DNA from: Chloranthus sessilifolius
Taxonomy: Eukaryota > Streptophyta > Magnoliopsida > Chloranthales > Chloranthaceae
Direction of reading: 5' to 3'
DNA length: 64,000 bases
Assembly (NCBI GenBank): GCA_021018995.1
Contig: CM037589.1
Coordinates: 63,515,068-63,579,067, forward strand
Shown: piece by piece, positions 1-51,300 of the stretch
Layout: every line of letters starts with the position of its first letter
Numbering within the stretch: the first letter of the stretch is position 1
Notes under the pieces: generated by a model
The model's database searches: none
What the model saw: the letters and a program-made list of their open reading frames with translations, nothing else
What the model was told of the DNA's origin: nothing
Position numbers and translations under genes: made by a program

Positions 1-761
1 TTACGGTTTGTAAAAGGCTTATAGTTTTCGGATTGGTTTATGATTTAGAAAAGGGTATTGGGATCGAAAGGAACAATTAGGCTAAGGTTTAGAGAAGCAA
101 ACACAAATCGAGAGATAGCAAATATAATCGAACAAAGCAAATTGATGACAAAGATAAAAGAAGATATATGGGAATCACTCCCTTGGTCTCACACCAAACT
201 CATCTCATGCAGAGAATACTCAAGCATAAAAGCATTCAAATATTCAATCAACTAATTACATTGTTTAGCTTAAAGACCTTATATAGGAGGTCTTACAATA
301 AAAGAAAACCCTAAAACGAATATTAAATAAAAGACAAATAAACCCCAAAAACTTAAGTTTGAAACTAGACTTCTAAAACAAGTCGGCGCGATTTCGATCA
401 ATCGAAATTGGAATTCGATCGATCGAAATTGAAATTCGATCGAAAGTGAAAATTGATCGATCGATCGAAATTCATATGTATAAAATATCACCGTCGACAT
501 TCGATCAATTAAATTTAAATTTCGATCGATCGATTATATGATTCGATCGATCGAAATATCACTCCGGAACTTAGTGTTTCTGTCAACCTAATTCGATCGA
601 TCGAAATAGGATTTCGATCGATCGAATTTGCCGCGTGCTCCTTCCATTCTCCAGAATTCTCATCTTTCGCCTAAATTTGACTTCCATTCCGCTTCTTCTT
701 TCTACGCCGGTAGAAACGATGTGGTCCGAATCCAATGTCCATGTATGTGGCGTCCCCGTCA
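1..761 (-). repeat. Chromovirus LTR, family A, reverse orientation, cut by the window start
   Basis: Read on the minus strand, this begins at 761 with TGACGGGGACGCC and then follows the same block order as the LTRs at 29853, 35605, 47169 and 49008. The shared blocks are the ACATACATGGACAT leader, a CCTATATAAG TATA region, the GGTTTGGTGTGAGACCAAGG block and the CCTTTTCTAAA block. Its 3' end lies beyond the left edge. The sequence to the right of 761 is not purine-rich on the minus strand, so it does not look like the inside of an element ending in a 3' LTR. A solo LTR or 5' LTR is more likely. It probably sits in an upstream intron or the 5' flank of the PECT gene. Confidence 0.85.
365..640. 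repeat. TTCGATCGATCGAA-type palindromic array inside the LTR
   Basis: About nine copies of the self-complementary core TCGATCGA, usually written as TTCGATCGATCGAA with AATT flanks, lie at irregular spacing of 15-60 bp. The array occupies the same slot, between the LTR leader and the TATA region, that holds different palindromes in the other family A copies. Confidence 0.85.
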
Positions 762-1788
762 TATTAGGAGGTGGATGGTTAGTGATATTTAGTGGGAATG
801 AAGCACGTATGATCAGAATAACACCTCATGAAGTTCATGGCTTGAATAACAGTACTGTAGCGAGGGAACCGGACCCTCAGAGATTGCTTCAATGCATAGA
901 TCGACTTGAGAAATCGACACACCTTCCCTGAATGCTGCCCTTGAAGCTAATAGCCAGGAGGGGGTGCCAATTTGATTTTAGGTTAGGGTTAAGAAGGGGA
1001 AGAAGAGGAAAGAGAGAGAGAATAGAATGACTTAGTGAGGGTTAGGAGAACCTACTAGCTTTTTATACTAATAAGGGAAAGTACTACTCACACCCATAAG
1101 TAATACACTCACCCCATAAGTGGCACACCTATCTAGGCCTATTGCACACACATATACTAATAAGTAGTAACTACTATATACACACCAATGGCACACCTAT
1201 CTAGGCTATTACACACACACACACACACACTAATAACTACTATATACATACAAATAAGTGAAGCTATTGGGCTGAGTGGTCCTTTGGATACCTATCTATT
1301 TTTTACAAGCTCTCAACGCATGACAAAATATTTTCCTGGAATTTTCTGACAAAACTGGAATCATTTAAAGATCGATCATGTGATAAATCACAGTCAACTA
1401 ATAATAGAATGTAGGAATAAGGGCAAATGAAATCTGAACAAATTGTTGAAGAAGATAAGTATGCTCCTATTATTTTTTGCATGAGAGAAAGAGAGGCGTA
1501 GTGAACCAAATAAAACTGGATTCCCTAACACTATTCATCACTTGTGGCATCTCACAATATATTTCTCCATTTTCTTGCTAGACATTCAGTTCATCACCAT
1601 CCATAAAGGTAAAAAGCAATTGATTATGTAGCTCAGGTGTGAGGAACAGGATTTTTTGTTCGTTGGAGCTCCTATAACAGTGAAGATGATAACAATATTC
1701 TTTTCTCCTTCCGAGGATATTTTTGAGTAAACTCTGCTTTTCGTCTTCATTACTATATTGTTAACTTGTTCTTTGTTGCTATCCTCAG
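762..1788. other. No gene recognised; low-complexity and possible decayed LTR sequence
   Basis: Holds a (CA)n run near 1211-1230, GA-rich tracts near 1000-1020 and a repeated phrase, CACACCTATCTAGG, near 1125 and 1193. A short open frame across the LTR border (to 931) has no recognised domain. I looked here for the exon that should precede the PECT exon at 1789 (the one carrying the HAGH-type motif) and did not find it. Confidence 0.5.
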
Positions 1789-4380
1789 ATCCTTAAGAGT
1801 GCAAGGCAGCTTGGAGATTTTCTCCTCGTAGGAATCCACAGTGACCAAACAATCAGGTACATCTTTTAAAATTTTCGCTTGCAACATTCATTTTTTTGTG
1901 TTTTTGTGTTAAAGTTTCTTGGTATCATCTCCTTCTTGGGACTACTTACCATTACTAAGTTCTCCTTTTCATGTTAATTTATGGAGGTTTCTATTATGTA
2001 CTTTTGTTCATGAAGACCAATTGCTTTTCTACTCAGTAATCACAGAGGAGCCCATCATCCAATTATGCATCTTCATGAGCGCAGTCTTAGTGTCCTGGCG
2101 TGCCGGTACGTTGATGAAATCATTATTGGTGCACCCTGGGAAGTTACAAAAGATGTGGTATGTAACTTCAGTTTAACTGAACTACTGAAAAAAAGACAAA
2201 CTGTAGTCGCCACTTTTGTCAGCATTTCTAATCGGAGTAAAATAACCTGATTTGTTTCATACCAAACTCCATTTCTTGAGATTCGATGACTAAGGATTGC
2301 TTGATTTTTTAAAATTGATGCATATACTTTAATCTAGCCTCATTTAGTGGTGTCAATCTGAAAATTTACATAGAAAATTCAGTAATTTAAAATGACTGGT
2401 ATTTTATTACAGTGGAATTACCGTATTAAAAGTTAACACTGTAGTCCGTTTTTTCATATACACAATCAAAAATTTTGAATACTTGATCTACTTGAGTACT
2501 TGATTAAGTTTCTTTCAGATTTTTAAAAAACCTAGTTGCTCCTATAATTTCATGCAAATTCTCACATAGCAGTTTTATTGCTTCTTTTTCTGCAGTGATG
2601 AGATTTGAGACCGGTTTATGAAAAATAAGGTTTATTAATCCTGTTGACACTTTTTGTATTGGTTGAGCAGATAACAACCTTTAATATTTCCTTGGTTGTG
2701 CATGGGACAATCGCGGAGAGCAATCATGTGTCAATCGTAAGCTAAACACTCGTACTTCATTGATGAAATTGCATTTCCCATTCGCACGTTCAAAAAGAAC
2801 AAAATTATTTTCCTTCTTTATGTATAGATGAGTTCTTAGTGAAATCTATTGCATCTTGTAGGGTGAATGTGATCCATACGCAGCTCCCAAGAGCATGGGA
2901 ATTTTTCGGATGCTTGAAAGCCCTAGAAATATAACAACTACTTCAATAGCAAAGAGGATAATTGCTAATTATGAACTTTACAAGGTATTTCTTAGTTTGA
3001 AATATTTCTTTTTACAGTTTCCTGCTAGTCTCTGCACCTTGTTTGCGTGCACAAGCCACACTATCTGCAATGCTCCCAGTTTTGAAAATCTTGAAAGCTG
3101 AAATATAGGTATATTTAAGTATGTGGGTGCTGGACCGGCTGGCTTTAAAATACAATGGTGTGCCTACTGCCAATCCTGACTCCAAGTCAACAGCTTGGAT
3201 AGTGCTCGATCCGCGTTCCTTTCCTGGCGGTCAAGTGATAACTATGACTATACTATACCCTTACTTGGTCGTTACGTATAGCCTGCCCACCACCAGTGGA
3301 AGCAAGCTACCCCTGCTTCAAAAGAATGTGCAAGCACAGGGCAGAAGTGACTGGCTACCTATAAAGTTGCCTCACTGCTTACTTTCTATATATCTGTATT
3401 CATGATCAGCTGCATGCACTAGTTATGAATCAGGTATAGAAGGGAGGGGAACTAGAAATTTATATGTAAAAGGCCTGATGGCCAAGTGATTATCGTCCAA
3501 AAGAAAACAGATTGGTTTGTACACCTAGGCCACGCATGATTATGACCAAAGCCATGAGCTTCCTCATATGATCACGTGTGAACGTCATAGTGGGACGTAT
3601 TCTACATTCTAGATTAGTGCCCAGGAGGCCGGTTTAGAATTCTATGCTAAGGGCTAAGGCAAAAGTGAATCTAGGAATGCTAATGGGTCCAAATCAAGGC
3701 AACTCCGTACATGACTCATTTAAGGCAGGTCCATACTCGACTTACTTAATAATTGGGTATAAATTTTGGATTTGGACCTGACCCATTTACTAATGAGTCG
3801 GGTCCAGAATGGGTCCAAGTCAAAATAGGCAAACCCATTAGGATTCGAGATTCAATCAAATATTTATAGTGTCTATTCATTTCCTACGCAATAAAAATGG
3901 GGAGTTTTATAATGTGTATAACTTTTTTAGAATGATGTTAAATTGTATATTTGTCTCTGTCTCCAACTGGATCCATTCCAAGCGGGTCTAATCTCGGGTT
4001 GGGTGAGTCAACGTGAACCTGCAGCAACAAAATATACATTTAGGGTTAATGGGATATCGCCGACTTCACTAGTATTGCATCTAGTGAAGCCAATCTCTCA
4101 CCATCAAAATCCGAGATGATCTGATTGCAGGGTAGATGTCAGCTTTTGACATGTCATAGGCTCATAGCGTTTAAAATGCTATTACAATTTTCTTTTAACA
4201 CGGTGGATCCGGTAATGGGAGTCTTTTTTTACATTTTATTATGTAATATATAGCTTCAGTGACAATAAAAACTCACATTACAAGTATTATAACTTGTTTC
4301 TCATGCAGAAGCGCAACGAGAAAAAGGAAAAGAGCGAGAACAGGTACTATGCAGAGAAGAAATTCATTTTCGGAGACTAA
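1789..4380 (+). CDS. PECT1: Ethanolamine-phosphate cytidylyltransferase, C-terminal part (5 exons visible)
   Basis: Exons 1789-1856, 2037-2157, 2671-2736, 2862-2984 and 4309-4380 (450 nt, 149 codons plus TAA) join in phase at GT-AG borders. The peptide includes ARQLGDFLLVGIHSDQT, LHERSLSVLACRYVDE, IIGAPWEVTKDV, ISLVVHGT and SMGIFRMLESP, and ends KKFIFGD. This matches the second cytidylyltransferase domain and tail of plant PECT1 (about 420 residues in Arabidopsis). PECT makes CDP-ethanolamine from CTP and phosphoethanolamine in phosphatidylethanolamine synthesis; the Arabidopsis enzyme is on the outer mitochondrial membrane. The first visible exon starts exactly where the family sequence continues from the HxGH motif, so the N-terminal two thirds is missing. 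No stop or frameshift is seen in the visible exons. I infer that the upstream exons lie left of the window behind a long intron. A 5'-truncated pseudogene is the alternative. The last intron is 1.3 kb. Confidence 0.85.
3288..3328. repeat. 41-bp segment repeated exactly at 28763-28803
   Basis: This stretch, starting CACCACCAGTGG and ending AAAAGAATG, lies in the last PECT intron. It is identical to a stretch in an intron of the ABC1K gene 25 kb away. Identity stops sharply on both sides. It contains a small hairpin (GAAGCA, 9-nt loop, TGCTTC). Confidence 0.8.
3674..3855. mobile_element. Possible small hAT-like remnant in the PECT intron
   Basis: The left end GAATGCTAATGGGT and the reverse complement of the right end GAATCCTAATGGGT match at 13 of 14 positions. 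The interior is rich in GGGTCC/GACCC. I could not fix a target duplication, so the assignment is weak. Confidence 0.3.
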
Positions 4381-6012: not shown

Positions 6013-6020
6013 CCAGTTAC

Positions 6021-8219: not shown

Positions 8220-8413
8220 CAAGCCCAATTCCTAAGGTATAAGTAAAAATGCCTAGCACAGACATTTTCAGTTCCCCCATCATATGCTAAACATCCCCAA
8301 CCAATCACAACTGAAAATTATTGTGTGAAAGATTGGGACGAAAAAGAATTTCTATCTCTGATTTGAATCAAACAATGGAGATTCTTTTTCGTCCAGCGTT
8401 TAACAGAATCAAG

Positions 8414-12777: not shown

Positions 12778-12780
<3 letters not shown>

Positions 12781-23748: not shown

Positions 23749-26700
23749 TCAACTATTTTGCCCTAAATTTAGTTGCATGTCTGGCCCCTTTTTGCCGAAG
23801 CTAGAGAAATCCTCCGGCAAGGGTACATTAATCTCAGCACAAACCAACTGAATTATTTTTCTAGTCACACCCCCAAGTGACATCTTGTTCACGGTAACAG
23901 CAATAGAAAATTGATGTTCGACATCACAAAAACCAGTTGATCCCCCGATCCCTGAGTGCCCAAAACTTTTCATTTGTCCGCTCGATTCAAACCTCCTAAA
24001 TCCGAGCCCAAACTTGCCATTTGGCAACACTAAATCGTTGTAATCTCCCGTACCCATAAATGCATCATGAATCCTAGGGTTACTATAAATCCTATCAACA
24101 CTTTTGTTTGTATTATTATTATTATTATCATTGCTACTGTTTTCAATGATATGTGAGTTACCATCAACATTAGTATTATGAGCAATAAGTCTATCAGTAC
24201 TATCATTCTGTGGGTTCTTCTGAATAACTGCTTCCTTACTTTTTCTTCCACCTCCCTTCTTCTTATTGGTTTTCATCGATGGGAATTTAGGGATGTGTGG
24301 GTGGCTGCCAAGTGGTATCGAGGAAGGAGTGTGAGGTGGCGGGACCAAGCCACCAGCAGCAAGAGCTGCATAGTATCGTGCAAGTGCACGGGCCGAGCAG
24401 TGGCCGTTGGCAGCAGGAATGATAGCCCGACGCATGTTGAGAGTATTGAAGAGGACAGGAAGGGCTGACAGGCCGCTTAACAAGTTGCTCGGTTGTGATT
24501 CCGAAGCCATGTATGGCCTATTGTTAAACTCGGAGAGCTTGTTGAGATCACTAGTGTCCAGAGTTAGGGTTGCCAGTCGAGATTCCACACCTGATGATGA
24601 AAATGGGAGCTTGTTATTAAAATTCGAGAAGAAGCTTGAGGTCCATTTGTGATTAATGACAAGTGGAATTTGAAATTGATCCCTCAAAAAACCAGAACAG
24701 AGGTCAGACCAGTGTAGCATCTGGTCTAGTTCTCATTGGGTTGACTGCCAATGCTTATATATGAAATAGAAAAATTGGTTCAAACTGGTTTGATTGATCT
24801 GCTAATCTGACCAGATAGGTTCAAGTGGGTGGTTTTTTCTGGCTTTTACGGTAGCGTGATTGAGTCAGAACCGTCAAATTTATGCTCATGCCCCACAACC
24901 AGTTGTGAATCATCTGGTCTGGTCTGGTATTTAAGCACTGCATTAAATTCGTCTGAGAAGTATAGCTGCATTTTAGTTAGCACGAGGGAGGAACACCAAA
25001 CATGTTGGAGAAAATGAGAGGACACCAGTGAGATTCTATTCATAAAAAAACAAAGAAAAAGAGAAAAGTTAACATTCCAGCACACCATTTATTAAGCATT
25101 ACTGTCAGAAACAATGAGCCAAATCATTTGCTTCCCACTTTTTTCTTCAATTTTTCCGTTGGCCTCAAAAAATTCTTGTTTGTGACCATAATTATGTAGC
25201 TTCATGCTCTGATTCTTCCCCGTGAATATATCAGATAAGAAAGGACGATAACCAACAATCTATTGAGACCCCATTTCTATAAAGTTTTTTCAAATTCATT
25301 TTTTCTAGATCATCTTTATATCGATAATTTTTTTATTTTTTTATATTTTCCGTGCCAGCTTAAGAAACAAATTAAAAATATACGTACACATATGGCATGC
25401 AAAGGAAACATGATATGAATGACAAATCAAGATGGTGTAAGAAGTAAAACAAGGAATGAATATTAGGGCTGTCTTCATGCCCAACCGGTTGAACCTATAT
25501 GGGATTCAACCAGTTTTAAACCCCTTGAATGGCAGGGATTCTCGAGTACCTTCACAGGTTGGAGTGAAAGTGCCTAAACACAGCCCATGCAAAAAAAATG
25601 GCAACTGTATGTTCATGATTCTCGAGTACCTTCACAGGTTGGAGTGAAAGTGCCTAAACACAGCCCATGCAAAAAAAATGGCAACTGTATGTTCATGATT
25701 GAATGGATAAGGGTATGCATATATGCGTGCATATGTAACCATAATTTGGTGCAGGTAACTCTTGTGAAAAAATAAGTGAAACTGGAAAGTGTTAACTTTT
25801 GGGTGCTTGCTCTGTGTTAAATCTAGGGGTGTAAATTTGGTTAAATGAACCGAACTGAAACCGAAAAAAGGTTTTCGGGTCGGTTCCAGCCTTACCAAAC
25901 CCGAACTGAAAAATTTCGGCTTCGGTTAATCAAACTTCCCACCACCCTAAACGAAACCAAACCAATCCAGTTTCGGTCAGTTTGGTTTTCGGTCATTTTT
26001 CATTTTTGCATTTTTTATTTTTTCCTTTTTTGAAGAGAAATTTTCTGTTCTTTTTTTGGTTTTCAGGGTCAGCTTCCTCATCCTACCCGGCTGGTTTCAG
26101 TTTTCAGCTACCAAAAATGAAACCAAACTGGGGTGTCTGTTTTCAGTCGGTTTTGGTCCAGTTCGGAATGCTCGGTTTTCGGTTTTAATTTGCACCCCTA
26201 GTATTTCAATGGGAGCTAAAATCAACAACTCAAATCAAATTACAAAGTCCAATGGGAAATTGTGGGAAATAATCATCATCATCATCATCATATCCTTATC
26301 CCATCTTATATGTGGTCAGGTGATTCAGTGAAACATGAATACTTTACATAGAAGTGCATATAGGAAATATTCTCCTGACTTATTTCAATATATGATGAAT
26401 GATGTTTCCCTGAATCATAAATTTGCAGCAATATGGTAAATGAGAGTCAGAACATACCAGGAGGAATGCCAATATATAGTTCACCTTCGATGTTGAGAGG
26501 GCGAATGACTGCTTCTTCCAAAACCTCTTGAAATTTCTTACCAGATGCATGCTGTTTCATTTAAAATTCCAAATCCATTATTATAATAAATTGGAAACTA
26601 AGAAATTGTCAAAAACATTGTGAAAGAGTAAAAGAGAACCTAAAAAATGTAACTGTCACAAAATGCAGGATTGCTGCTCTTCAATATTTTTTGTTTTTGA

Positions 26701-29700: not shown

Positions 29701-30007
29701 TTCCAGGTGATGTGGACCAGGACCCTCATCATGTTAAAGTCAAATTTCAAAATTTCTAACCTGTAAGTAAACATCTCTCCCTAAATATCGTTCAGTTCAT
29801 ATCGCCATCATAGAACCTCTTCCAATACTTAACATGCTTTAAATTGGGTATCTGACGGGGACGCCACATACATGGACATTGGATTCGGACCACATCGTTT
29901 CTACCGGCGTCGAAAGAAGAGGAGGGGGAGCCCGAGTTCGAGTACCCGTGTTTCATCAGTGATGAAACATTTTGAGTGGAGGAGAATGACGGGGAACGTC
30001 AAGGAAA

Positions 30008-30072
<65 letters not shown>

Positions 30073-33000
30073 TGTTCACGATGAACAGTGACGGACGTCC
30101 GTGATTTTGCCCCCTATCTGTCCATAGGTCACGGACGTCCGTGGACGTCGTGACGGGACTTCTAATTTCGAGTTTTTTGTTGCGAAAACTTTCCTTTTAG
30201 TGCTTTATTTCTATTAGAACTCTTTATTTCGAGTTTAATTATTGGTGGCCTATATATTGAGGCTTGTAAAGACTTTTTAATTAGTTATTGAATATTTTGA
30301 ATGCTTTATGCTTGAATATTCTTTGCCTGAGATGGGTTTGGTGTGAGGCCAAGGAAGTGATTCCCAAAAGTCATTGTTATTTTCTCTATTATCTATCACT
30401 GTCTTCTTTGAATCTTTTGCCTTATTGATCCCTGCTTGTTTCTCCTACATCTTAACTTATTGATTTCTTGATCCCTAAAACTATAAATCCCTTTCAGAAT
30501 CCCAAATCAAACAGAGCCCAAAACCCTTTTCTAAGCCATAAATCAAACCATAAGCCCATTACAAAACCACACACCTATTTCCAAAACCCTTATTAGAGCC
30601 TGCGAATCTACGTCGGATCGAAGACGACGCCCAAGCCTGGAAAAAGCTAGAGTTCTATCTCTAGGCCGATCTCACCTCAAATCTAATAGTACTTGCGCAT
30701 CAGACTGGACCCTAACTAGATCTCGCGTGATCTACCAACTTGAATTCTCTGAACCCTAAGGTATTTAAGATAGTTTTGAGATTAAGCTTGATTTAATTTT
30801 ATTTAATTTCGACAAAATCGCATAATATCATAATCACGCATTTTAGGGTCGTTGTACCACATCAATTTTGGTATCAGAGCCAGGTTTTCTAGGCTAGGGC
30901 ATCCTTGCTTGTCATATCTATTTTATTGCATTGTTTTCTTTTGTGGGTTCATATTGCATTCCATATTAGAACCCTAATAGACCTTGTGATCACCATGGAC
31001 TCGAGTGCGATTCTCAATGCCCTTAACGGTATGCGAGAAGAGTTGGGTGCTATTAGTGCACGACTGAATACCATTGAGCAAGCCCAAACATCCCTAGAAG
31101 TTGGTAATGATAGATTACGTGATCTAATCAACCAACTGGAAGCGATGGGTGGGCTGGAAAATCAACACCAAGAGCGTGAATGTCCACACTTTGAACGTAA
31201 TGGTCGCCAAGACAACCGGAACCGTAGGGATCATCGTAGAGATGACTATGACCCCGAAGTTCAACTCCTAAAGAACGTTCGAGTTGAGATTCTCACTTTC
31301 GATGGAAGATGGACCCTACCGTCTTCCTCGATTGGCTTTCAGACATGGACCAATATTTTGATTGGTATGCCATGAATAACGACCGTTGCGTTAGACTCGC
31401 TAAGATGAAGTTGGTTGGTCAAGCTCGACTTTTCTGGCTCAATGTCGAGTGCATTAGGGTGAACGCGGGTTGACTTCTCATTACCCATTGGGACGACATG
31501 AAGGAACGACTTACTGAGAAGTATGTTCCTTTCTCATACCACCAACGCCTCGTCGACTAGTGGCAAAATTTACGCCAAGGTGGTATGCCCGTGACCGATT
31601 ACATTGCCAAATTTGAAGAGTTCATGATGAGGGCAAAAGTATTGGAAGACCCTGAAATTACTCTCTTTAGATTTTGCACCGGATTACGACTTGAATTGCA
31701 AAAAGAATTGATTTCTCACCCCGTAGAAACTCTTGAAAAATGCTATGCCGTTGTGCAAGATCTTGAACGGTACTTGAAAACTACGGTGGTGAAGAGGACC
31801 GAGCCATATTATAATAGTCAACGATCCGGTGAGGGACGATTCATTCCTCCTCCCAAACCCACACAACCTGCCCCTACCAATTCGAGGTTTGAAAAGGGAA
31901 AAAGTGTAGTTGGAGACTCCTCCAGGGTTAACTCTCAAGTAAAGTGCTATAAATGTCATCGGATGGGACACTTTGCTTCCCAATGCCCTATGAAAGAACC
32001 CCAGAGGACTCTCTTCATTGAGGGAGAGGAGGATGATGATGGGGTAGTGGTTGAAGAGGAAGTATTTGAACCGGTTAGCATACCCAGTGATGAAGAGGGT
32101 GATGCTATTAGTCATGCTTTAGTTGTGAGGTGTGCCCTTGCACAACCTCAACGGGATGAAAAGGATGACTGGCGAAGGGAGAACATCTTCCACACCTACT
32201 CCATATTTGGTGAAAAGAATTGTAGGGTCATTGTGGATAGCGGTAGTTGCACTAATGTTATATCAACTCATGTCGTACGCCGCTTAGGGCTTACACCCGA
32301 AGCCCACCCGAGACCTTATAAAGTCGCATGGGTAAATTCTTCGTCCATTCCCGTGTCGAAAAGGTGTCGTGTACCGATTCAGTTAGGTTCTTATTCGGAC
32401 ACCTTATGGTGTGATGTGGTGCCGATGGATGTGGGTCATATCATTTTGGGAAGGTCGTGACTCTACGACATGGACGTAACTCTTTCTGGTCGAACAAACA
32501 TATGCACATTCATGCATAAGGGCAAAAAGATCACTTTACACCCTTTACCTCCCAAAGCACCATCGACCAACACAGTTGAAAAGAAGGGCAAGTCTTCTAA
32601 ATCCATTAATATTGTGAGCCCTTCTGAGTTTGAGAAAGCATCGATAGAAGAGAGTGTGGTGTATGTTGTTGTCACCGTAGAGAGTGCTCCCGAGTCGGTG
32701 AGCGAGTGTCCCAAGGAGGTTGAGCCGATTTTAAAAGAGTTTACGGATGTCTTCCCTGAAGACTTACCAAACGAACTCCCTCTTCTGCGTGATATCCAAC
32801 ACGCAATTGACTTGGTTCTCGGATCTACTTTACCGAACCTGCCCCACTATAAGTTGAATCCGGTTGAGCACGCCGAGTTGACTCGGCAAGTCAATGAGTT
32901 CCTTCAGAAGGGGTTCATCCAAGAGAGTCTGAGCCCGTGTGCCGTACCTACCCTACTCACTCCTAAGAAAGATGGTACATGGCGCATGCGTGTGGATAGC

Positions 33001-36000
33001 CGTGCAATCAACAAGATTACCGTTAAGTATCGATTTCCCATACCAAGGCTCGATGACATGCTTGACATGATGGTTGGTGCCACTATCTTTTCAAAGATCG
33101 ACCTTAAGAGTGGTTACCATCAAGTCCGCATCCGCCCCGGTGATGAGTGGAAAACCACCTTTAAGACTAAGGACGGTTTTTATGAGTGGATGGTCATGCC
33201 ATTTGGGCTTTCTAATGCCCCGAGTACTTTCATGCGACTCATGACCCAAGTGTTGAGGTCGTTTTTAGGCAAATTCTTTGTTGTTTATTTCGATGACATT
33301 TTGATCTATAGTCATAACAATGATCAACACTTGAACCACCTTAGGTTGGTTTGTGAGACCCTCAAGGGCGAGAAGTTGTTTGCAAATCTCAAGAAATGCA
33401 CCTTCATGCAACATTCTGCTGTTTTCTTGGGATTTATTATCTCGGCCGATGGAATGGTCGCGGCCCACGAAAAGGTTAGAGCCATTGTGGAGTGGTCTGA
33501 GCCTACAAACATACACGATGTCCGTAGCTTCCATGGTTTGGCTACTTTTTATCATCGCTTCATCAGAAGCTTTAGTACCATTATGACCCCAATTACTGAT
33601 TGCATGAAAAGGGGGGACTTTAAATGGGGCAAAGCTGCGGCGAAAGCCTTTGCTGAGATCAAACAACAAATGAGTAGTGCACCCGTCATGCGCTTACCGG
33701 ACTTTTCCAAAGTCTTCAAAGTCGCATGCGACGCATCCGAAATAGGCATAAGAGGAGTGCTTAGCCAAGAGGGTCACCCTGTGGCCTATTTTAGTGAAAA
33801 ACTTAACGAGGCGAAGCAAAAATACTCCACCTATGACAAGGAGTTCTATGCGGTCGTTCGATCTCTTTGGTATTGGAAGCATTAACTTAGACTGCATGAA
33901 TTTGTGTTGTTTTCTGACCATGAAGCCTTACGCTTTCTTGCTTCACAGAAGAAGTTGAACCCAAGGCACGCGAAGTGGGTTGAGTACCTTCAAGGGTTCA
34001 CATTCGTGTTAAAGCATAAAGTGGTCTTTGAAAATAGACGTGATGTACTTAGTCAGCGAGTGGTGACTTTGCGCACAATGAGCACCGAGGTCGTCGGGTT
34101 CGAACAGTTAAAGGATGAGTACCCCGAGTGCCCAGATTTTGGGGTTGAGTACATTGCTCTCCTTAGTAACCCGACCAGCACACACTCTGCGTACACCATC
34201 CAGGATGGGTACTTGTTTAAAGGTAATCGCCTTTGCATCCCTCGCACTTCATTGCGTGACTTTCTCATTTGGGAGTTACATGCTGGAGGGATGGCTGGAC
34301 ATTTCAGGCGTAATAAAACTGTTGCGCTCGTAGAGGATAGGTTCTTTTGGCCTAGCCTAATGAGAGATGTCGCTCGGGTTGTCAAACATTGTCGTACTTG
34401 CCAAGTGTTAAAACAGACCAAACAAAATACTGACTTGTACACTCCTTTACCCGTGCCACACACACTGTGGCAAGACCTCTCTATGGATTTCGTGCTTGGA
34501 CTTCCTAAGACCCTTAGGAAGCACGATTCCATTTTTGTCGTAGTGGACCGATTTTCCAAAATGGCCCACTTCATTCCTTGTTCCAAAACCTCCGATGCAG
34601 CTCATATTGCTAAATTATTTTTCGCGGAGGTAGTGTGTCTTCATGAGTTGCCCAAAACTATTGTGTCTTATAGGGATGTTAAATTTACTAGCTATTTTTG
34701 GAAGACCCTTTGGCACATGATGGGCACATTGCTCCAATTCTCAACAGCTTACCACCCTCAAATGGATGGCCAAACCGAAAGCACCAATAGGAGCCTTGGG
34801 AATCTCCTTCGTAGTCTTGTTGGTGATCATGTTAGGACCTGGGATACCATTTTACCCACAGCTGAGTTTGCCTATAATAATTATGTCAATAGGTCCATAG
34901 GCATGAGTCCTTTTGAGGTAGTGCATGGTCATAGGCCTAGGACCCCATTAGATTTGATCCCCATGTCTGCATCCCATAGAGTGTGTGCAGCCGATGCATT
35001 TGCACAACAACACATTCATAGCTTGCATCAGAAATTAAAGAAAATTAATTCAATCAACAATCAATATAAATTATCTGCAGATGCTAACAGGCCTTATAAA
35101 AAATTTCAGGTGGGTGATTATGTGATGGTAGAGTTTGGCACAGGCGATTCCCATCGGGATTAGCAAAAAGCTCAATCCGATTTGGGCCTTTTAGAATTTT
35201 GGCTAAGAGTGGTCCTAATGCATACGTGCTCGAGCTTCCTCCAGGCACGGGGTTAGTTCAACGTTCAATGTGGAGGACTTGGTTCCTTATTTGGGCTTCA
35301 CCCCACCTCCTGAAAACCCACTCCAGCCACTTCCTAGCCCCAGCCCCAATCCATCCTTGCAACCTATACCTCTTCCTTCCCCAAGTAAATAGAGATAAGA
35401 TGAGATAGAGGATATAATCAACGATTATGCCGTCTCTACACATGACGGAGGATTCCAGAAGTACTTGGTTAAATGGGTCGGCAAACCGGAGTCTGAAAAC
35501 ACTTGGGTCCACGAGAATGAAGTTAGTCGCTTGAACCTCGACCTGCTAGACATCTACCATGAGCGCGTTTCATCGGTGATGAAACCTTTTTGGTCCAGGG
35601 GAATTGGCGGGGACGCCACATACATGGACATTACCACAACGTTTCTACCGGCGTCGAAAAAAGAGGAGAGGGAGCCCGAGTCCGAGTACAACATGCGTGT
35701 TTCATCGGTGATGAAACATTTTGAGTGGAGGAGAATGACGGGGTACGTCAAGAAAAAAAAAAAAAAAAAATTACTGTTCACGATGAACAGTGACGGACGT
35801 CCGTGATGAACAGTGACGGACGTCCGTGATGAATAGTGACGGACGTCCGTGATTTGCCCCCTATCTGTCCGTAGGTCACGGACGTCCGTGGGGCACTACG
35901 GACGTCCGTGGACGTCGTGACAGGACTTCTAATTTCGAGTTTTTTGTTACGAAAACTTTCCTTTTAGTGTTTTATTTCTATTAGAACTCTTTATTTCGAG

Positions 36001-37920
36001 TTTAATTATTGGTGGCCTATATATTGAGGCTTGTAAAGACTTTTTAATTAGTTATTGAATATTTTGAATGCTTGAATATTCTTTGCCTGAGATGGGTTTG
36101 GTGTGAGGCCAAGGAAGTGATTCCCAAAAGCCATTGTTATTTTCTCTATTATCTATCACTGTCTTCTTTGAATCTTTTGCCTTATTGATCCTTGCTTGTT
36201 TCTTCTACATCTTAACCTATTGATTTCTTGATCCCTAAAACCATAAATCCCTTTCAGAATCCCAAATCAAACAGAGCCCAAAACCCTTTTCTAGGCCATA
36301 AATCAAACCATAAGCCCATTACAAAACCACACACCTATTTCCAAAGCCCTAGTTAGAGCCAGCGAATCTACGTCGGATCGAAGACGACACCCAAGCCTGG
36401 AAAAAGCTAGAGTTCTATCTCTAGGCCGATCTCACCTCAAATCTAATAGTACTTGCGCATCAGACTGGACCCTAACTGGATCTCGCGTGATCTACCAACT
36501 TGAATTCTCTAAACCCTAAGGTATTTAAGATAGTTTTGAGATTAAGCTTGATTTAATTTTATTTAATTTCGGCAAAATCGCATAATATCATAATCACGCA
36601 TTTTAGGGTCGCTGTCCCGCGTCAGTATCACAAAGGGCACCTAGGGAGAATTTCAAATTCCCAAGAACACCATTATTTTTTGAAATTATCTTTTTAATAT
36701 AAGTTAAAGTTAAGAAAACGATTCTTCATAAAAGAATTTACAGGCCAAATGCATGGACTGATCAAAGTATAATTTTTGACTTTATGAAAATCAACCAAAT
36801 GCTGCTTATAGGAATGTTGAACTATTAGTTTTAGAAATGGACTTGTGTCAAGATTTGGCATCATAAACTGCTAGTTGTTGCTACTAATCCCCATTCTTAC
36901 TAAGGAATGACAAGGGAAATAAGGATTCGTTATGGGCTTGCTTAATCTATTGGCAAGTGGGCTTTTGTACAAGGCTGAAATGGAGCCAAGTCCATTCTCA
37001 TGACATACTTTATATACTTCATTTATTCAATTGGTTCACTGTAATCAATTTTGTATTTGCTCCAACCGAAGTTTACAATAATCAGGATCCATAAAAGAAG
37101 TTACTACAATAGCTTAATACCCAATCTTCCAGTATAGACTGCAAAATTATGCACCTTTCAAAATTCAAGCCACAGAACTGAAAAAGAATAAGATACTGAG
37201 TTATTTTTTTACCCATTATCAACCAGCCAGTGTAACATTCCTGCAGTGATCCCTTTTGTTACTGAGAAAACTGGAAATAGCGAATCAGGCTGAACAGGTC
37301 GGGGATCATATCTTCCGAGCATGCCAGCAGCAGTATCTATTATAACCTTTCCATCTTTGTAGGCAGAAACCTAGAAGAAGTAAAAGTTAACGGAAATCAT
37401 AACAAATACAAGGAGAAGCTAGTGCCATATATTTTCTGCAGCAGACTTTTTAGATCAAAATTTTCCTTCCGAAAAATAAAGCCGCAATCCAATAACATTC
37501 ATCATACATGTACATGTAAAATGAAGCTTATAAGCATAAACAATGAGAAGGATCAAGTATAAAATTTGAAAATTCAATGCGCACAATGTGAGTAAAATCT
37601 TCTCTTAATATCTGCAAAATATTTTTGTGTATCTGACTTTTTTATCATCACAACCAATCAAGCATTTCATTAATGTTTCGAGTACTAAACTGGTTCGCTT
37701 AGTATTCAACTAAGGCTACACTGAAGTAACAAAAGGCATTCAGTCTTTTCTCTTCCAGATTTCACATGCAATATGAACAAATAAATGAAGGACTGGCAAT
37801 CACCATAGAAAACAAATATGAACCAATTTAAATTAGGGATTTTTACCAAACAGGGCACATACTTGCATCTATTGATAGGATGCGGCATTGCTTTAAAATA
37901 ATTATAAACCAGGGAAACTG

Positions 37921-42937: not shown

Positions 42938-42995
<58 letters not shown>

Positions 42996-45340
42996 ACATC
43001 TACTGAAATCATAGGAATGCTCATAAATGAGTTTTGTCTCTCTTATTGACAATTAAGACATAGATTATTAGATATTATTAGGGGCCCACTTGTTGAGTTT
43101 ATCTCACCCCCATTGTTAACATTTCAGTGGCGGATCGAGTTAACCTTCGGGCACTCCTCAAGCAGAGACGTTGGGAGATCTTTTGAATTAGAGTTAGCCG
43201 AGGAGTTGTAAGGTTTTGTGCTAGGTTGCAAGGGACTTTTGAATTGTAATGGTGTTTACGATGAACAATGATTTGTAACAATGATGTACCCTTCTTTTGA
43301 ATTTATGAATGAAATATCTGGTTATGTGTTTTGTTTAACCTTTTAGTTGTGTTTTGATTATGGAATTTGCTCACGTACCGAAATCTGCGGTGTATTGGAT
43401 TTCGGGGTGTGACAGGTTGTATCCACTATTCATTAGTTGCATATTTACATGTTTTTAACGTGATTAATATAAAAGGAGGGCCTGGAGAATCCCTGAGCTC
43501 TATGCCTTTTATCCTCTCTTTCCTCTTCTTTTCCGACCTTCATGCTCACTCATCTAACCCTGACACTTTTTGCCAAAGACAACTCATCTCCCTGGAATTC
43601 CACACAAGTAGAATTTTTCCAGAGGCCCCAATGATATCGAGGACTTCCTAATTCCAACTGCTGTGCAGTGAATATAGACCTAATTTTCAGTGATATGCAA
43701 TTAGACGATTTGGATTCCTGAATTGTGAGGATCTTTAGCTTCTTCTCTGCAATTACTGTTTTTACTGCTGCACACTTGTCTTTGCTACCCAAACCCTTAA
43801 TGTTACTGTCGTCATGGACAGTAACAAGAAATCCCAACTCACATCTTCAGAAACACAACTACATCTGCATGCAACAATAATATTCCCACCTACAGCACCT
43901 GAGGTTTTGATGATCATGTTATTTTATGTTGACTATTGAGTACAGCAATATGGCTACTTGTGGCATCCCCCATGAATGTAGAGCCTCCACATTCCAGAGA
44001 AAAAAGATGGATCCATAATCAACTTCTGATCCGTATGACATCCTCAACATTTCCTAAATCTCTCATATCTTGATCCACAACGTAATTTCAAGAGTTCTCA
44101 GCCTCTCTCATCAACATACTTCATGTGCACTGAGAATCTCTCTTCAATGATATACTGAAATTAATCGTAGGCTACTCGAAATCACTTTTCAACCTTCTAC
44201 AGTTTTAACTAACCCAATTGATGTGGCAATAGTTCTCCCCAACCCTGATATAACTTTCACTCATCCGACTTCCTGACCACAACAGTTTGATCTCTTAGTA
44301 ATCTTTGAAATTTATGGAAATCGACACTCGCAAAAATCACACTCAAAAGATTTCCAGGACGAAGTCAAATGATTTTACTTGTGAATTCCTCATCATCAAA
44401 AGGACTCGCGGGATAGAGGTATCTCCCCTTAATGATATTAATCACACTGGACTCACTACATCAAAGAGGAATGCCGGGATCAAGCTTGTAGTCACACCTC
44501 TTGAACAGAATCATCGGCTTAGTAGTGAAAGTAGTGAAATTTTGAAAGATGCAAGGATGTACCAAAGGTTAGTTGAGAAGTTGATCTACTTAACCATGAC
44601 ACGCCCCAACACAACCTATGCAGTTAGTGTTGTAAGCCAATACATGCACTCTCCGAGGACCACACACTTAGATGTTGTGTACAGGCTTATCAGGTATTTG
44701 AAGAGGAGCCCTAGAAAATGGATCCTTTATAGTAACCATGGGCATTTGGATGTTGAGATACTTACAGATGCAGATTGGGCTGGCACCTTAAGTGATAGGA
44801 GGTCAACTACAAGCTATTGTGCCTTCTTGGGAGGTAACCTTGTCACATGGAAGATAAAAAAGCAACACGTGGTTGCAAATTCTAGTTGTGAAGGAGAACA
44901 TAGGACTTTGTCCCAAGGTGTTAGAGAAGGGATGTGGATTCGGTTCATCCTAGCTGATCATGGTATTAATGTGAATCTACCAATGCTATTATATGGGGAC
45001 AATGAAGCAGCGAATCATATAGCAAAAAATCCTGTCTACCACGAGTGAACTAAGCATATTGAAATTGATTGTTATTTTATAAGAAAAAAGGTGGAATCTC
45101 AGGAGTTTAGTATCCCTCAAGTTAGCACTGAAGATCAATTGGTTGACATTTTGACGAAAGCGGTTGGAGGAAAGCGTTTGGATGATATCACCTTCAAGTT
45201 AGGAAGGATAGACATATATGCACCAACTTGAGGGAAAGTGTTGGTGATTAGTTGGTGTGTGCATTTATGTGTTAGTTACTTTAGTGTCAGTGTGGTTGTG
45301 TTAGTATCATTTGGGGTGCCAGTAACACTTTGTAAGTGAT

Positions 45341-45375
<35 letters not shown>

Positions 45376-48300
45376 CTTCCTCACCCTAACCCTAATCACC
45401 TTATCATACAACTAACTGAATAGACCCTCCCTACATCCGCTTGGCACCCAAACACATGTTTAGGGTGCCACCTGGACAGATATGGCTGTTACATTGAACA
45501 ATGGGGAAGGGTACAGCTCCCAGGCCCTCTCTCTCTCTCTCTATACATATATATACAGGGGGAGAGGTGAAATATATAAAAGGGAAGTTGTGGGAAAGAA
45601 TCTGGGCCAAGCAGGTCATTAAAAACGAAGAGAAAAGAGACTAAAAATAAGGGGAAAACTACATGGTCATTCTCACCCCACATATTATGATATGTGTAGA
45701 AAGTAATAACTATACCTGTAACTTATGCGATAAATTAGTAATCACTAAATAACTCTGAGCAAGTATATAAAACACAAGGTGAACAAGATATATGTAACAT
45801 AGTGTGTACAAACCTCAACATATAGGACTATACCAAAGACGAAATTAAAGATTTGTTGGAACGATTCATGATTTTCATTGGCCATTTGATGATCCTATCA
45901 TGGTTAAATACAAATGGAGCAATGTGATAGCTTGGATTCAAAGAAGTCTCACTCATCTTGATTAATTTCATTTTTTTCTGGCCAGCCTTTAACTGACATG
46001 CTGTTGTAATCATGTTTTCCTTAATAAAATCATAATGATTCATACAAAAAGGAAAAGTATTTCAGTCATGGATGGAAGCTTTTATTATCAACAAAACTTT
46101 AGATTCATCTCAAGGATAAGATACTATGCTCACACATTGAGATGCCCTGCCCACTACGCTATTTTTTAAATTTTAGAATTTTTTGTTGTTTTTTACAAAA
46201 CGTATATCATAGAAAGAAAAACCTGCAGAGGTATAATAAAGAAACTGTGAGGAATGGTCAGCATTCACAGAAAGAAGCTTCTGCATTATGAACAACAAAA
46301 GCTGGAAAGTATACTTATGATCAAAGAAGTAGATGGACAAATCACAAAATTACAGAATTAGAGAGGAGCGATATAGGAAGAAAGGGATGTGCGATCATTA
46401 TTTGATGGTTGGATATTGACTTTTACCTGAATTCCAAGTATTGTGTCATTTCCCAACTCAACTAGGAGTTGCCTCAACTTTGCCTCAACATCAGAGTGAA
46501 CAGGTGTATCATATATCCATTGTGAACTCATTCTTGGTCCACTCTTTAGAATTCTGCTGGCCATAATATACATATACGATTTTGATATGAGAAGAAGAGA
46601 CTATACAGAATGAATTGAACTAAGATCATAAGCAGAAGTACACTAGCAATATGCTCGCAACATATTTACTCACCCCTGTAGAGCAGACTCAGCAAATGGC
46701 CTCATGATATCTAAGTAAACTATGCTAACATTCAGTGTGGATGAAAGCCCTGGAAGGCATATTTCATGTCAAATACAAATTAATAACAATATTTCAATAT
46801 AGAATTAAGGATGAATTTGTTCTAGCACAGACCTCGAAGAAGATTTAAAACACGAGCGAATATAACAGCATCACCTGGAAAAGCATCAACCTAGAAAATA
46901 AAGTTGACATGTTTCTCAATACAGAAACCATGAGGGAATTCTTAAACCAATCAGTTTGAATCTGCATAACTAAAAACATATCAGCTGTAATATCCCATAT
47001 TTTTTATGATTCATACACCAGCTAAAAGTGTACTCAGCAGCACCTTAGATGTACCAAAAAATTTGGATAAGTATGACCAGGGGCAGAAATATCATGAGTA
47101 AAAATGTAATTGGGTATTTTTAAAATTCTTAAGGGAAAAACTGTAATGTGGACCGTAGGGGGAGTTTTTGACGGGGACGCCACATACATGGACATCGGAT
47201 TTGAACCACATCAATTTTACCGGCGTCGGAAGAAGTGTAGAGAAAGCCCGGATACCGTAGCCTTAGAGGAGAAAATGACACAAACTGACAGGAGAACAGC
47301 GCCACAGCAGCGCGCCGTGACAGCTGCCGCAGCACACTGACGACTTCAGATGGGATTTTATAATTTTTGTGAAAACTGCCTTTTATGTTTTATTAGTATT
47401 AGGATTCTTTTATTTTCGGAATTAATTATTGATGGCCTATATATAGAGGCTTGTAAACACCTTTTAGTGAGTTGATTGATTATTGAATGAGAGCTTTTGC
47501 TTTATGAAGAGTCTTCTTCCCCGTGATGGGTTTGGTGTGAGACCAAGGGAGCGATTCCCATATATCTTTTTATTTATCTTTGTCATCAATTTGTTTTGAT
47601 CGATTATATTTGCTATCTCTCAATCTGTGTTTGCTTCTCTAAACCATAGCCTAATTGTTTCCTTTCGATCTCAAACTTAAACCTTTTGAATCCATAGATC
47701 AAACAAAGCCAATACCCTTTTCTAAACCGTAAACCAATTCAAAACCATATTTTACATACCGTAAATCCCTTTCCCCACCCTATTTGGAATCAGTGAAACT
47801 ACATCGGACTAAAGACGAGCGCCTAAGCCTGGAAAAGCTAGAGTCTTATCTTTAGGTCGATCTCGCCTCAACTCTAAAAGTACTTGCGCATCAGATTGGA
47901 CCCTATCTGGATCTCGTGTGATCTACTCATCACAATTCTCCAAACCCTAAGGTATTAAAGATAATTTTGCTATTGAACTTGAATTAATTTAATTAATTTC
48001 GGCAAAATCTGCATCAAATCATATTCACGCATTCTAGGGTCGTTGTCCCTCGTCGGTTTCGGTATTTTCCAAAAAAAAATTGAAGGGAAAAATAGTAATT
48101 TAGCACTAAAGGACAGATTTGGAATATTAAAACGGTCTGTTAAAATTGTAATTTTGACCTTGAGGGTAGTTCTAGTATTTCTTAAATTTAAAGGGCTAAA
48201 ATCGTAATTCTATTCCTAGGGGAAGTATAAAAATTTCTTTAAAAATTGATGGACAAAAGAGTTATGAAAATTTTAAAATAAAATAAATATGTCAAAATTC

Positions 48301-51300
48301 GCCAAATTTTTGAAAAGTTTGTGAATTATTTGTGAATTTGAGGTTCTACGAATTATTCGCAAATTCTTGAAAAAACGTGGGATTTTTAAAATTTTGCGAA
48401 TAATCCACAATTTTTTCAATAAATTGTGATCTTTAATATTTTTATACTTTTTAATCTTATTTTTTTAACTTTTTATGTCCCATTTTTCTCCCCGAACTTG
48501 CAGAATTTAAACCTTGTCGAATTATTGCCCAACTTGGTGGCCATGCCCATACAGAGTGACATAGGTGTGTGTGTGGATGTGCATGTGTGCGCATGCATGT
48601 GTGACATTATGTGCGTGCATTTACAAACACATGTGTGCAATTGGCCAAGAAGGGAGGTGGCCCCTTGGGAAATCTATGTATAAGGGAGAGGGGAGAGGAT
48701 GCAATTCATCCATTCCCATCTAAAAGTGAGGAGACGGAGAAATAGAGGAAGAGAGAGAGAGAGAGGAGGAGAGGAAGAAGAAGGTACATCCAAGGTTCAG
48801 CTAATCAGGCGAGGCATGGTATGGTCCAAATTCAGCTAATCAGGCGAGTTATGCTTTATTAGTCTAGTTTAGTCTAAATTATGCATAATTAAGAGTAGAT
48901 AAGTCTAACTAGATTAAGTAATGCTTATCTTAATTCCTCATCATCATCATAGCCTTATCACATCTATTTGGCTTCGGCTTTGCAATTCCAATTTCTCCAC
49001 TTGTTTCTGACGGGGACGCCACATACATGGACATTGGATTCGGACCACATCGTTTCTATCGGCGTTGGAAGAAGCGTAGAGGAAGCCGGAGTTCCGCGAG
49101 GAGAACAACGCCGCAGGGAATCCTCGCGCGAGCGAGCACTTAAAGTGGCTCGAGCGACGATAATCCTCGCGCGTGCACTATGGCGACGATGTCAGACGCG
49201 CGAGCGATCACTTAAACTCGCTCGAGCGAGCCCTCGCGCGAGCGATGATAATTATCACTCAAGCGAGCTACGACACGGAAAGTTATTCGAAATTTCCTTT
49301 TTTGTGTTTTATTAGTATTAAAACTTTTTATTTCGAACTTAATTATTGGTAGCCTATACATAGAGGCTTGTAAAGACTTTTAATTAGTTGATTGATTATT
49401 TGAATGCTTTTATGCTTGAGTAATCTTTGTCTGAGATGGGTTTGGTGTGAGGTCAAGGGAGTGATTCCCAAAAGCCATTGTTATCTGCTCTATTCTATTT
49501 GCTACTTTCGATCTGTGTTTGCTTTCTAAACCATAGCCTAATTTCTTCCTTGTGATCCCCAAAACCCTAAGCCCTTTTTGAAACCCTAAACCACACAAAG
49601 CCAACACCCGTTCTAAACCATAAACCGAGCCGAAAACCATAAGCCTATTGCAAACTGCAAATCCCTTTCACAACCCAACTTGGAATCCGTGAATCTACAT
49701 CGGACCGAAGATGGGCACCTAAGCCTGGAAAAAAGCTAGAGTTCTATCTCTAGGCCGATCTTGCCTCGACTCGAAAAGTACTTGCGCATCGAACTGAACC
49801 CTACCTGGATCTCGTGTGATCTACCAACCTGAATTCTCTAACCCCTAAGGTATTTAAGATAGTTCTGAGATTAAGCTTAATTTTATTTAATTTCGGCAAA
49901 ATATGTATAAAAATCATATTCCGCATTTTAGGGTTGTCCCGCGTCAGTTTCTGATAAGCGCTAAGCTCTGTGTAACTTCACATCCTTCATATCCCTTCTC
50001 ACGGCTTCCACCCAGATGTTCATTGGTCTTCCTCTTCTCCTACGTCCTTGTGCTTGTAGAGCCTCAACTCTTCGTAGAGAGTCAACCTCTAGCCTCCAAT
50101 GAACATGTCCAAACCAGCTCAAGCGACACTAAGTAATTTTTTCCTTCATAGGTGTCACTCTCAAATTTTCTCTTATGTAGTCATTTCGTATTTAATCCTT
50201 TCTTGTTACTCCACACATCATCTTAGCATATGCATTTCGTCCACATGTATTTTATCTTCTTGTTACTTTTTCGGCCACATATACTCCACGATCTGACTGT
50301 AAAGTAGAGCATTAGTAGCAAAATCTATAGCAATGTGACACTAAATGATTTTCTATTTTGATTAAATCCTCCTCCAAACTTTCATGTTCACTAAATTTGC
50401 ACTCTGTGTATTCAGTCTTTGTTCTACTAATTTTCAAACCCCTTGATTCCAAAGCTTTTTCTTCATACTTATAGCTTTTCATTTATTTCTTTCCTTGTTT
50501 GAGCAATTAAAACTATGTCGTCTACAAATAACATGTATCACATAATCGCTTCTTGTATGTCTATGGTTAATAGATCCATGACCAAGGCAAACAAATAAGG
50601 GCTCAAGGCAAATCCTTGATGCAGCCCAACTCCGATAGGGAACTCACTCATCTCTCTGCACGTCGTTTTAACACTAGTTACTGCCTTCTCATACATGTCT
50701 TGGATATTCTCAATATATAAATTAGGAATTCATTTCTTCCCCAGTGTCCACCATATTATCTGTCTTGACACTATCATAAGCCTTTTCTAAGTCAATAAAG
50801 GTCATATGTAGTTTTTCCTTCTCTAACTTCTCTATAAGTTGCCCCAATAAGAAAATAGCTTTCGTTGTTGACCTTCCCGGCATAAATCCAAAATCCAAAC
50901 TGGTACTCTGGTATTTGATATTGTCATTGTTCAACTATTTTTTCCCAAAGTTTGGCTCGTTAGCTTAATGCCTTAATAGTTGGCACAATCTTGGATGTCT
51001 CATTCGTTCTTATAGAAAGGAACCACAATGCTCTTCCTCCATTCCTCGGTCGTTTTCTTCGTTTTTAATATCTTATTGAATAATTTAGTCACTCAATTCA
51101 GTCCATTCTCTTCTAACACAATCCATGCTTCTATAGGTATCCCATCTAGTGCTAACGTCTTTCTTTTCTTTATCTTTGTTGAGGTTGCTTTTACTTAAAA
51201 TTTTGATATTTCATTGATCATCCCTTGGTTTGGTTCCTCTTCTTCATCCACTTCTTTTGCATATTATGTTTTAAATAGATCTTTAAAGTATTTTTGTTAT

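Follow-up and report, generated by a model that had tools for sequence, protein, structure and literature searches.

In the Solanaceae, the Tnt1, Retrolyc1 and Retrosol elements differ among subfamilies in the unique 3' (U3) region of their long terminal repeats (LTRs) while other parts are alike, and modular evolution has been proposed for them (PMC1838419). Most LTR recombinants of ONSEN in Arabidopsis are consistent with a first template switch in the repeat (R) region (PMC5668417), and recombinant chromoviruses among the grass centromeric retrotransposons combine LTR parts from different subfamilies, for which co-packaging has been proposed (PMC4079200). Sirevirus LTRs carry many palindromic CpG motifs upstream of TATA, called Sirevirus-specific (PMC2829016), a variable, CpG-rich stretch of low conservation occupies part of the 5' half of the LTR in plant chromoviruses such as Del (PMC4029996), and subfamilies of the chromodomain element crapaud of Podospora differ in U3 before TATA, with template switching suggested (PMC10787394). 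The present analysis concerns family A, a chromovirus-like Ty3/gypsy family whose LTRs were found in 64,000 nucleotides of Chloranthus sessilifolius (GCA_021018995.1, contig CM037589.1, forward strand, positions 63,515,068 to 63,579,067; this whole stretch is the window) and followed across the 2.17 Gb of genome scanned.

Family A LTRs are mosaic, with a junction near the U3/R boundary, a leader that is coding, an array that turns over rapidly and like cassettes standing on several different R and unique 5' (R-U5) backgrounds. They may be described as three modules: a leader of ~65 bp that comprises the attachment site and the last pol codons, a putative U3 control block in which short CpG words, often palindromic, form an array ahead of a TATA promoter, and R-U5. 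We consider it probable, at roughly 0.68, that U3 control blocks have been passed between family A lineages and related families via reverse transcription.

Within the window, family A comprises four insertions, the LTRs at 29853 and 35605 being the 5' and 3' ends of one element (E2). The leader word GACGCCACATACATGGAC lies at window positions 737-754 (minus strand), 29860, 35612, 47176 and 49015 (5 matches versus 0.02 expected), and GTCCCGCGTCA or a variant forms the terminus of all four LTRs whose end falls inside the window. The slot between leader and TATA holds TCGATCGA, ACGGACGTCCGT, CTCGCGCGAG or CAGC/GCGC sequence. Local alignment of slots against 300 shuffles gives clear similarity only for the two LTRs of one insertion; the pairs 47169/49008 (18 bp, 3/300 shuffles as high), 47169/60201 (6/300) and 35605/49008 (7/300) carry values uncorrected for the number of pairs tried. 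Against 1000 dinucleotide shuffles, 10-base palindromes are in excess in the TCGATCGA slot (12 vs 1.5) and the 35605 slot (5 vs 0.31), with no shuffle as high in either, as well as in the 49008 slot (4 vs 0.60, 0.6% of shuffles) and the 29853 slot (2 vs 0.23, 2.5%); the 47169 slot has none, and 8-base palindromes are non-significant in the 49008 (6.2%) and 29853 (19.9%) slots. The LTR at 60201-61043 was rejected as a member because the identity of its 3' half to family A copies is 44-50%, against 65-79% between family A insertions; it matches only at the LTR ends, by eye, and in the block surrounding TATA.

The 27-base leader has 685 exact matches in the genome and none for its reversed control. 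The census takes the first 100 listed leader places (91 on contig C1, 9 on C2; L numbers below) plus the five window LTRs, 101 of which were anchored. Our own motif rule labelled 31 of these S1 (TCGATCGA), 15 S2 (CGGACGTCCG), 16 S3 (CTCGAGCGAG, CTCGCGCGAG), 10 S4 (CAGCGCGC), 4 S5 (GTGAACAG) and 25 unclassified; later relabelling by eye moved L028 to S2 and L039, L089 and L108 to S3 (S2 16, S3 19, unclassified 21), whereas the fixation index (Fst) and the 98-row tree below use the earlier labels. In S1-S3 the palindromic motifs are multi-copy and upstream of TATA, and perfect 12-base palindromes exceed the shuffled mean 7.8-fold in S1 (91 vs 11.7), 24-fold in S2 (24 vs 1.0) and 13.8-fold in S3 (23 vs 1.7), with 0 in S4, 1 in S5 and 0 in unclassified slots; in U5 control stretches palindromes fall below shuffles for nearly all types. 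The CGG-CCG core that marks Sirevirus repeated motifs is present in S2 (CGGACGTCCG) and absent from S1 and S3. Genome-wide, the S1 word TTTCGATCGATCGAAAT has 5668 strand matches (control 0), the S2 word CACGGACGTCCGTG 2526 sites (control 2) and the S3 word CTCGCTCGAGCGAG 11123 sites (control 1); pattern scans of viral and prokaryote collections returned 0 matches. The preliminary description had counted five family A LTRs with shared ends, a different array in each, and three self-complementary CpG arrays. Common leader and TATA-to-end blocks, with distinct arrays before TATA, are borne out for four insertions, but the 60201-61043 LTR belongs elsewhere and 29853 and 35605 are a single insertion; strongly palindromic arrays are recovered as census types S1, S2 and S3, and the 47169 slot (S4) has no 10-base palindromes.

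Slot type and the 3' part of the LTR are strongly discordant. The U5 tree (98 of 105 rows, omitting L010, L049, L057, L079, L101, L105 and the window A1 copy) requires 27 changes among the six labels (shuffled mean 58.1, minimum 5), and its well-supported branches alone force at least 5 S1 changes and at least 6 S3 changes. A U5 tree restricted to one LTR per insertion and types S1-S3 (53 rows) requires 9 changes (shuffled mean 23.7, minimum 2), and single clades are rejected by the approximately unbiased test (p 1.8e-5 for S1, 2.7e-73 for S3, 1.5e-5 for S2). The tree of the promoter, ~95 bp around TATA in 56 rows sampled in the same way, needs 2 changes, the minimum, with S1 (100/100) and S2 (94/83) each forming a single clade. 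For differentiation between S1 and S3, windows before and across TATA give an Fst of 0.73-0.86 and the next 10-column steps give 0.64, 0.53, 0.23 and -0.13; beyond this collapse Fst does not exceed 0.14 as far as column 350 or, in 60-column windows, 0.13 as far as the LTR end. The collapse lies 20-40 bp past TATA, near the expected U3/R boundary. Because the promoter is concordant with slot type, U5 is discordant and Fst collapses after TATA, slot and promoter travel together while R-U5 has been reshuffled, incompletely. The preliminary description had viewed the slot as an exchangeable enhancer or structure-forming cassette and proposed comparing slot type with a tree of the TATA-to-3' half; the U5 discordance (9 changes, single clades rejected) favors replacement over gradual change alone. 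Exchangeability thus stands, with enhancer function a conjecture, but the unit exchanged within family A is larger than the slot: array plus core promoter, with its junction near U3/R.

The two LTRs of single insertions reveal both when the chimeras arose and how the slot has changed since. Thirteen pairs were compared: E2 and 12 genome pairs lying 5.5-7.7 kb apart on the same strand, the downstream copy with polypurine tract (PPT) context. L101/L102 (no anchor in L101), L014/L015 (opposite strands) and L037/L038 and L085/L086 (unlike, not a 5' plus a 3' LTR) were omitted. Pair members are nearest neighbors in the U5 tree in 12/13 cases (exception L034/L035) and share a slot label in 12/13 (exception L074/L075, S4 versus unclassified), so the chimeras already existed at insertion. 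Gap columns number 540 per 2518 aligned bases in the slot, 120 per 6685 in U5, 68 per 2133 in the promoter block and 10 per 822 in the leader, that is 21.4 per 100 in the slot versus 1.2-3.2 elsewhere (7-18 times the flanking LTR), in agreement with the faster slot turnover claimed beforehand. Counted as events, insertions and deletions (indels) are 46, 30, 12 and 3 in the slot, U5, promoter block and leader (1.83 per 100 in the slot versus 0.36-0.56); 21 of the slot indels are at least 8 bp long, many containing motif units. Substitution rates diverge less (slot 0.077, U5 0.053, promoter block 0.052, leader 0.057). Transitions at CpG sites are similar in slot (56/242, 0.231) and U5 (72/298, 0.242), with 14/84 (0.167) in the leader and 10/36 (0.278) in the promoter block. 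A pure 47-bp (AT)n run in the E2 5' LTR (30025-30071) is missing from its 3' LTR and, being present in one only, was gained or lost after insertion.

The leader has a constraint of its own. The first ~65 LTR bases carry on the pol reading frame beyond the chromodomain, and non-CpG differences at bases 28-63 of the 101 anchored LTRs number 86, 68 and 237 at codon positions 1, 2 and 3 (1212 cells each); the leader is coding and conserved by constraint on pol's last codons. The first in-frame stop varies with slot type, at 86 or 89 in 28/31 S1 and at 113 in 9/16 S2. The slot thus starts at about the end of pol. The leader also partly tracks slot type (Fst 0.18-0.44, at most 3/500 permutations as high).

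E2 places family A among chromovirus-like Ty3/gypsy elements, with reverse transcriptase, RNase H, the integrase zinc-binding domain, a chromodomain and 5-bp target-site duplications (TSDs). The Pfam domains RVT_1, RT_RNaseH and Integrase_H2C2 follow one another in successive frames in gypsy order, while the integrase core has no Pfam match in E2; with gypsy-type domains and order, family A falls outside the Ty1/copia definition of Sirevirus. The E2 primer binding site (PBS), TGGTATCAGAGC, is presumably of tRNA-Met type, and a resemblance of the chromodomain may point to the Galadriel clade. An ordinary Chromo domain precedes the E2 3' LTR, and a basic pol tail enters the LTR. A polyprotein extending into the 3' LTR is known, from the passages cited, for CRM group A and some Reina-clade elements (PMC3059260, PMC3605345). 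The mark of CRM group A is a CR motif that lies within the 3' LTR, downstream of the polypurine tract. CRM group C combines a CRM-clade reverse transcriptase with a Type II chromodomain ending near the 3' LTR, and the position of the family A chromodomain agrees with this.

Like cassettes also occur outside family A. Twenty places, 8 with the S1 word, 8 with the S2 word and 4 with the S3 word, were hand-picked, non-randomly, from early C1 matches. The promoter is S1-like at all eight S1-word places (82-90% identity). In L137 the leader, promoter and U5 are all those of family A; L133-L136 and L138 carry the related leader of family B (74-82%) with weak or no U5 matches; and L139 and L140 match the family A references in neither leader nor U5, L140 joining an S1 array and promoter to a different leader and the R-U5 of the window 60201 family. 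Block identities were computed from 31 A-S1, 16 A-S2, 19 A-S3, 4 B and 1 D copies (L136, of family B, was dropped for want of an anchor). The A-S1 leader is 0.88-0.91 identical to other A and 0.76 to B, the A rows having been chosen by the first 27 leader bases; bases 68-105 are 0.69 identical to B and 0.49 to A-S3; the promoter 0.80 to B, 0.87 to D and 0.69 to A-S3; and downstream, R and U5 are 0.82 and 0.72 identical to A-S3 and 0.71 and 0.57 to B. Judged from these blocks, A-S1 appears as a composite of an A leader, B-like bases 68-105, a B/D-like promoter and an A R-U5. Of the S3-word places, L150 belongs to family A and L151 matches none of the reference blocks. L149 combines an A-like post-leader and an S3 array with a promoter and R-U5 of the 60201 family, and L152 has a family B R-U5 with an S1-like promoter. 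L149 and L152, outside the census, suggest that the slot may also have been exchanged without its promoter.

The S2-word places are more varied. L141 and L148 are members of another related LTR family, and L145 has another gypsy-like leader, by eye. L143, L144, L146 and L147 (family K) carry ACGGACGTCCGT words and match one another over long stretches but none of the family A-D reference blocks; in L143, L146 and L147 the words lie, by eye, upstream of a TATA-like stretch. The match between L141 and L143 is restricted to 37 bp at the motif, and of two family K copies examined for a Ty1/copia affinity, neither had a PBS motif or an informative reading frame beside it. In L142, unrelated sequence gives way to a stretch opening TGACGGGGAACGTCAAG that matches by eye an inner segment of A-S2 slots, over 17 bases in E2 and about 60 in L086. 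On our reading, this stretch may be the LTR start of another family, the putative source of the pol end, PPT and U3 captured by A-S2. The inner U3 segment of E2 (29947-29995, 35695-35743), which resembles the L142 stretch by eye, holds an inverted repeat, GTTTCATC/GATGAAAC.

The likely route to such mosaics would begin with two different RNAs packaged together. Reverse transcriptase would copy R-U5 from one RNA and transfer through R to the U3 of the other, with a possible second template switch at the conserved leader; the new LTR would be copied to both ends, making both LTRs of the insertion the same chimera, and after insertion the array grows and shrinks by indels, many of them motif units. 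Template switching in R leads one to expect a U3/R junction and matching LTR pairs, as seen. Co-packaging and template switching are thus what we infer, as is a role of the arrays as binding sites setting when the element is transcribed; palindromic words before TATA are compatible with dimer-binding sites. A broader suggestion, which we hold tentatively, is a shared genome-wide vocabulary of palindromic CpG words, traded as U3 cassettes among co-packaged families, and also reached independently by unrelated families, so that selection by a few host factors would shape LTRs across the genome.

Several observations weigh against the exchange of U3 blocks by template switching. Slot types remain clustered on the U5 trees (27 changes vs 58.1; 9 vs 23.7), and in U5 windows 0.58-0.89 of rows have a nearest neighbor of their own slot type (chance 0.36; LTR pairs included). 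The promoter tree rests on 107 columns that may take in the last bases of some slots, the transcription start and hence the start of R is placed from TATA and unmapped, and the census rows come mostly from one contig (91/100). Palindromes cannot be a requirement, since neither S4 (10 rows) nor the unclassified slots (21 rows) have 10- or 12-base palindromes in excess. The slot/promoter junction of L149 and L152 is unexplained by R transfer alone. Finally, slot type would be expected to agree better with the pol end than with U5, because U3 and pol would come from one RNA and R-U5 from the other; yet in trees built from one set of 27 3' LTRs, pol end and U5 require 9 changes each (shuffled mean 14.6 each). 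The pol-end tree has few supported branches, places S3 copies in separate pol groups and puts L039 and L020 on long branches. Further switches inside pol would produce the same outcome, and the result neither supports nor refutes the exchange of U3 blocks.

If DNA gene conversion or unequal recombination among copies had instead mixed the LTRs once they were inserted, the agreement within pairs would be hard to account for, as such events should split pairs (12/13 are nearest neighbors, 12/13 share a label) and the junction clusters near U3/R. Solo LTRs with TSDs do show that LTR-LTR recombination occurs here, the same-strand close neighbors L037/L038 and L085/L086 have unlike slots (PPT context before none or both), and in the cited account of crapaud 7/150 full copies have disparate ends ascribed to conversion or ectopic recombination (PMC10787394); even so, we regard this explanation as unlikely. 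Vertical subfamilies diverging in place by point change and slippage are less likely again. The growth and loss of arrays in place is real (21 slot indels of at least 8 bp in 13 pairs), S3 and S4 copies have, by eye, common flanks around different arrays, and slot types cluster on the U5 tree; against these stand the U5 discordance, like cassettes on unlike R-U5 and slots that are unalignable where their flanks align. Vertical slippage alone is rejected for S1-S3 by the trees, and could still hold for S3, S4 and S5 in one U3 background.

What the arrays do is a separate matter, on which exchange of U3 blocks has rivals of its own. The slot might be neutral filler, free of coding and core-promoter constraint, in which any repeat can grow; the high slot indel rate and the S4 and unclassified slots, with their lack of palindrome excess, fit this, but three palindromic word types with the 12-mer excesses given above, word counts in the thousands against controls of 0 to 2, and the recurrence of the S2 word in the LTR-like family K, unmatched to families A-D, make it doubtful. 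To the same degree we doubt a role of the arrays as RNA or DNA structure (packaging, 3' end, small-RNA source) in place of protein binding. Slot RNA folds better than shuffles in S1 and S2 (mean z -3.69 each) and S3 (-1.40; 8 slots each), U5 stretches do not (z 0.18 to 0.98), and maize Sirevirus palindrome clusters with a small-RNA excess are described in the cited section of PMC10760457. S4 slots, however, have no folding excess (mean z -0.28), perfect short palindromes as fixed repeated words also suit dimer-binding sites, and the folding excess does not separate the hypotheses because any palindromic array folds so. The least probable role is that of an unmethylated CpG island escaping silencing, as proposed, in the part cited, for Del LTRs by Cruz et al. 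(PMC4029996). CpG observed/expected is 1.6-2.9 in 4/5 window slots (0.95 in the 47169 slot) and 0.18-0.53 downstream, but slot CpGs decay like those of U5 (0.231 vs 0.242) and are unprotected after insertion; a protected island is rejected by this equal decay.

Coordinates of the window features are collected in Table 1. Outside the studied LTRs, an 80-bp unit is duplicated exactly in tandem at 25537-25700 (2 copies, 100% matches). A 22-bp tandem array recurs at a distance of 580 bp (52530-52587 and 53110-53167), possibly as part of another repeat. Frames for gag and aspartyl protease mark a second gypsy-type element at 54382-56618, and the reading frame at 44305-45048 resembles a fragment of Ty1/copia RNase H.

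Table 1. LTRs and associated features in the window (~, approximate boundary)
Feature	Position	Strand	Details
A1, family A LTR, slot type S1 (TCGATCGA)	1..761	-	cut by window edge
A1 leader	695-761	-	
A1 slot	~368-694	-	
A1 TATA	near 280-287	-	
E2, one insertion	29853..36624	+	TSD GTATC (29848-29852 / 36625-36629); pol interrupted
E2 5' LTR, slot type S2	29853..30864	+	
E2 5' LTR leader	29853-29919	+	attachment site and pol C-terminus
E2 5' LTR slot	~29920-30168	+	
Counterpart of inner pol-end/PPT/LTR-start segment, E2 5' LTR	29947-29995	+	
E2 5' LTR (AT)n	30025-30071	+	
E2 5' LTR TATA	near 30249	+	
E2 primer binding site	30869..30880	+	TGGTATCAGAGC
E2 chromodomain and pol C-terminus, toward 3' LTR	35399..35602	+	Pfam Chromo, E 1.3e-9, 68-residue piece
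E2 3' LTR, slot type S2	35605..36624	+	slot ~35664-35935
Second pol-end/PPT/LTR-start segment inside E2 U3	35695..35743	+	resembles 35563-35612, 82% over 50 bp
Tandem array in E2 3' LTR slot	35782-35853	+	23-bp unit, 3.1 copies
A4, solo LTR, slot type S4 (CAGC/GCGC)	47169..48055	+	slot ~47236-47355; TSD GTTTT/GTTTC
A5, solo LTR, slot type S3 (CTCGCGCGAG, GCTCGAGCGAGC)	49008..49946	+	slot ~49075-49272; TSD GTTTC
Solo LTR of family C, GTGAACAG slot	60201..61043	-	TSD GTGTT/ATGTT (4/5)

Individually, U3-limited variation, R-region recombination, palindromic repeated motifs and variable LTR CpG islands are all in print. Among the titles and abstracts listed by searches of open-licence literature, none describes chromovirus families that exchange cassettes of palindromic words at a mapped U3/R junction, and the combination of these known parts looks new. 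It preserves a legible history of regulatory modules exchanged between retrotransposon families, together with candidate donors, junctions and a control region, and allows one to test which host factors, if any, select identical palindromic words across LTR families. It also calls for caution with LTR-based classification and dating, in which modules with different histories are mixed.

Set beside the known systems, as far as the cited portions describe them, family A combines features otherwise found apart. Tnt1, Retrolyc1 and Retrosol are Ty1/copia elements, whereas family A is a Ty3/gypsy chromovirus with cross-family exchange, a junction near U3/R and arrays of palindromic words. The ONSEN recombinants are new insertions of one family, most of them consistent with a junction in R; here the insertions are old and belong to several families, and Fst falls 20-40 bp past a TATA from which the unmapped start of R is placed. 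Crapaud is fungal, and 'palindrom' occurs 0 times in the text of its report as available; here the junction was tested and like cassettes occur in other families. The eudicot cluster of Del is predominantly without CpG islands, with no swapping described in the sections cited, and family A slot CpGs decay like the rest of the LTR. The grass centromeric recombinants belong to the CRM clade, with no motif cassettes in the portion of the report cited, whereas family A has them. There is a likeness in sequence to Sirevirus, whose Usier motif GTCGGACGTCCGAC includes CGGACGTCCG, the S2 core; in Chloranthus, however, such motifs stand in chromodomain Ty3/gypsy LTRs, with several word types within one family.

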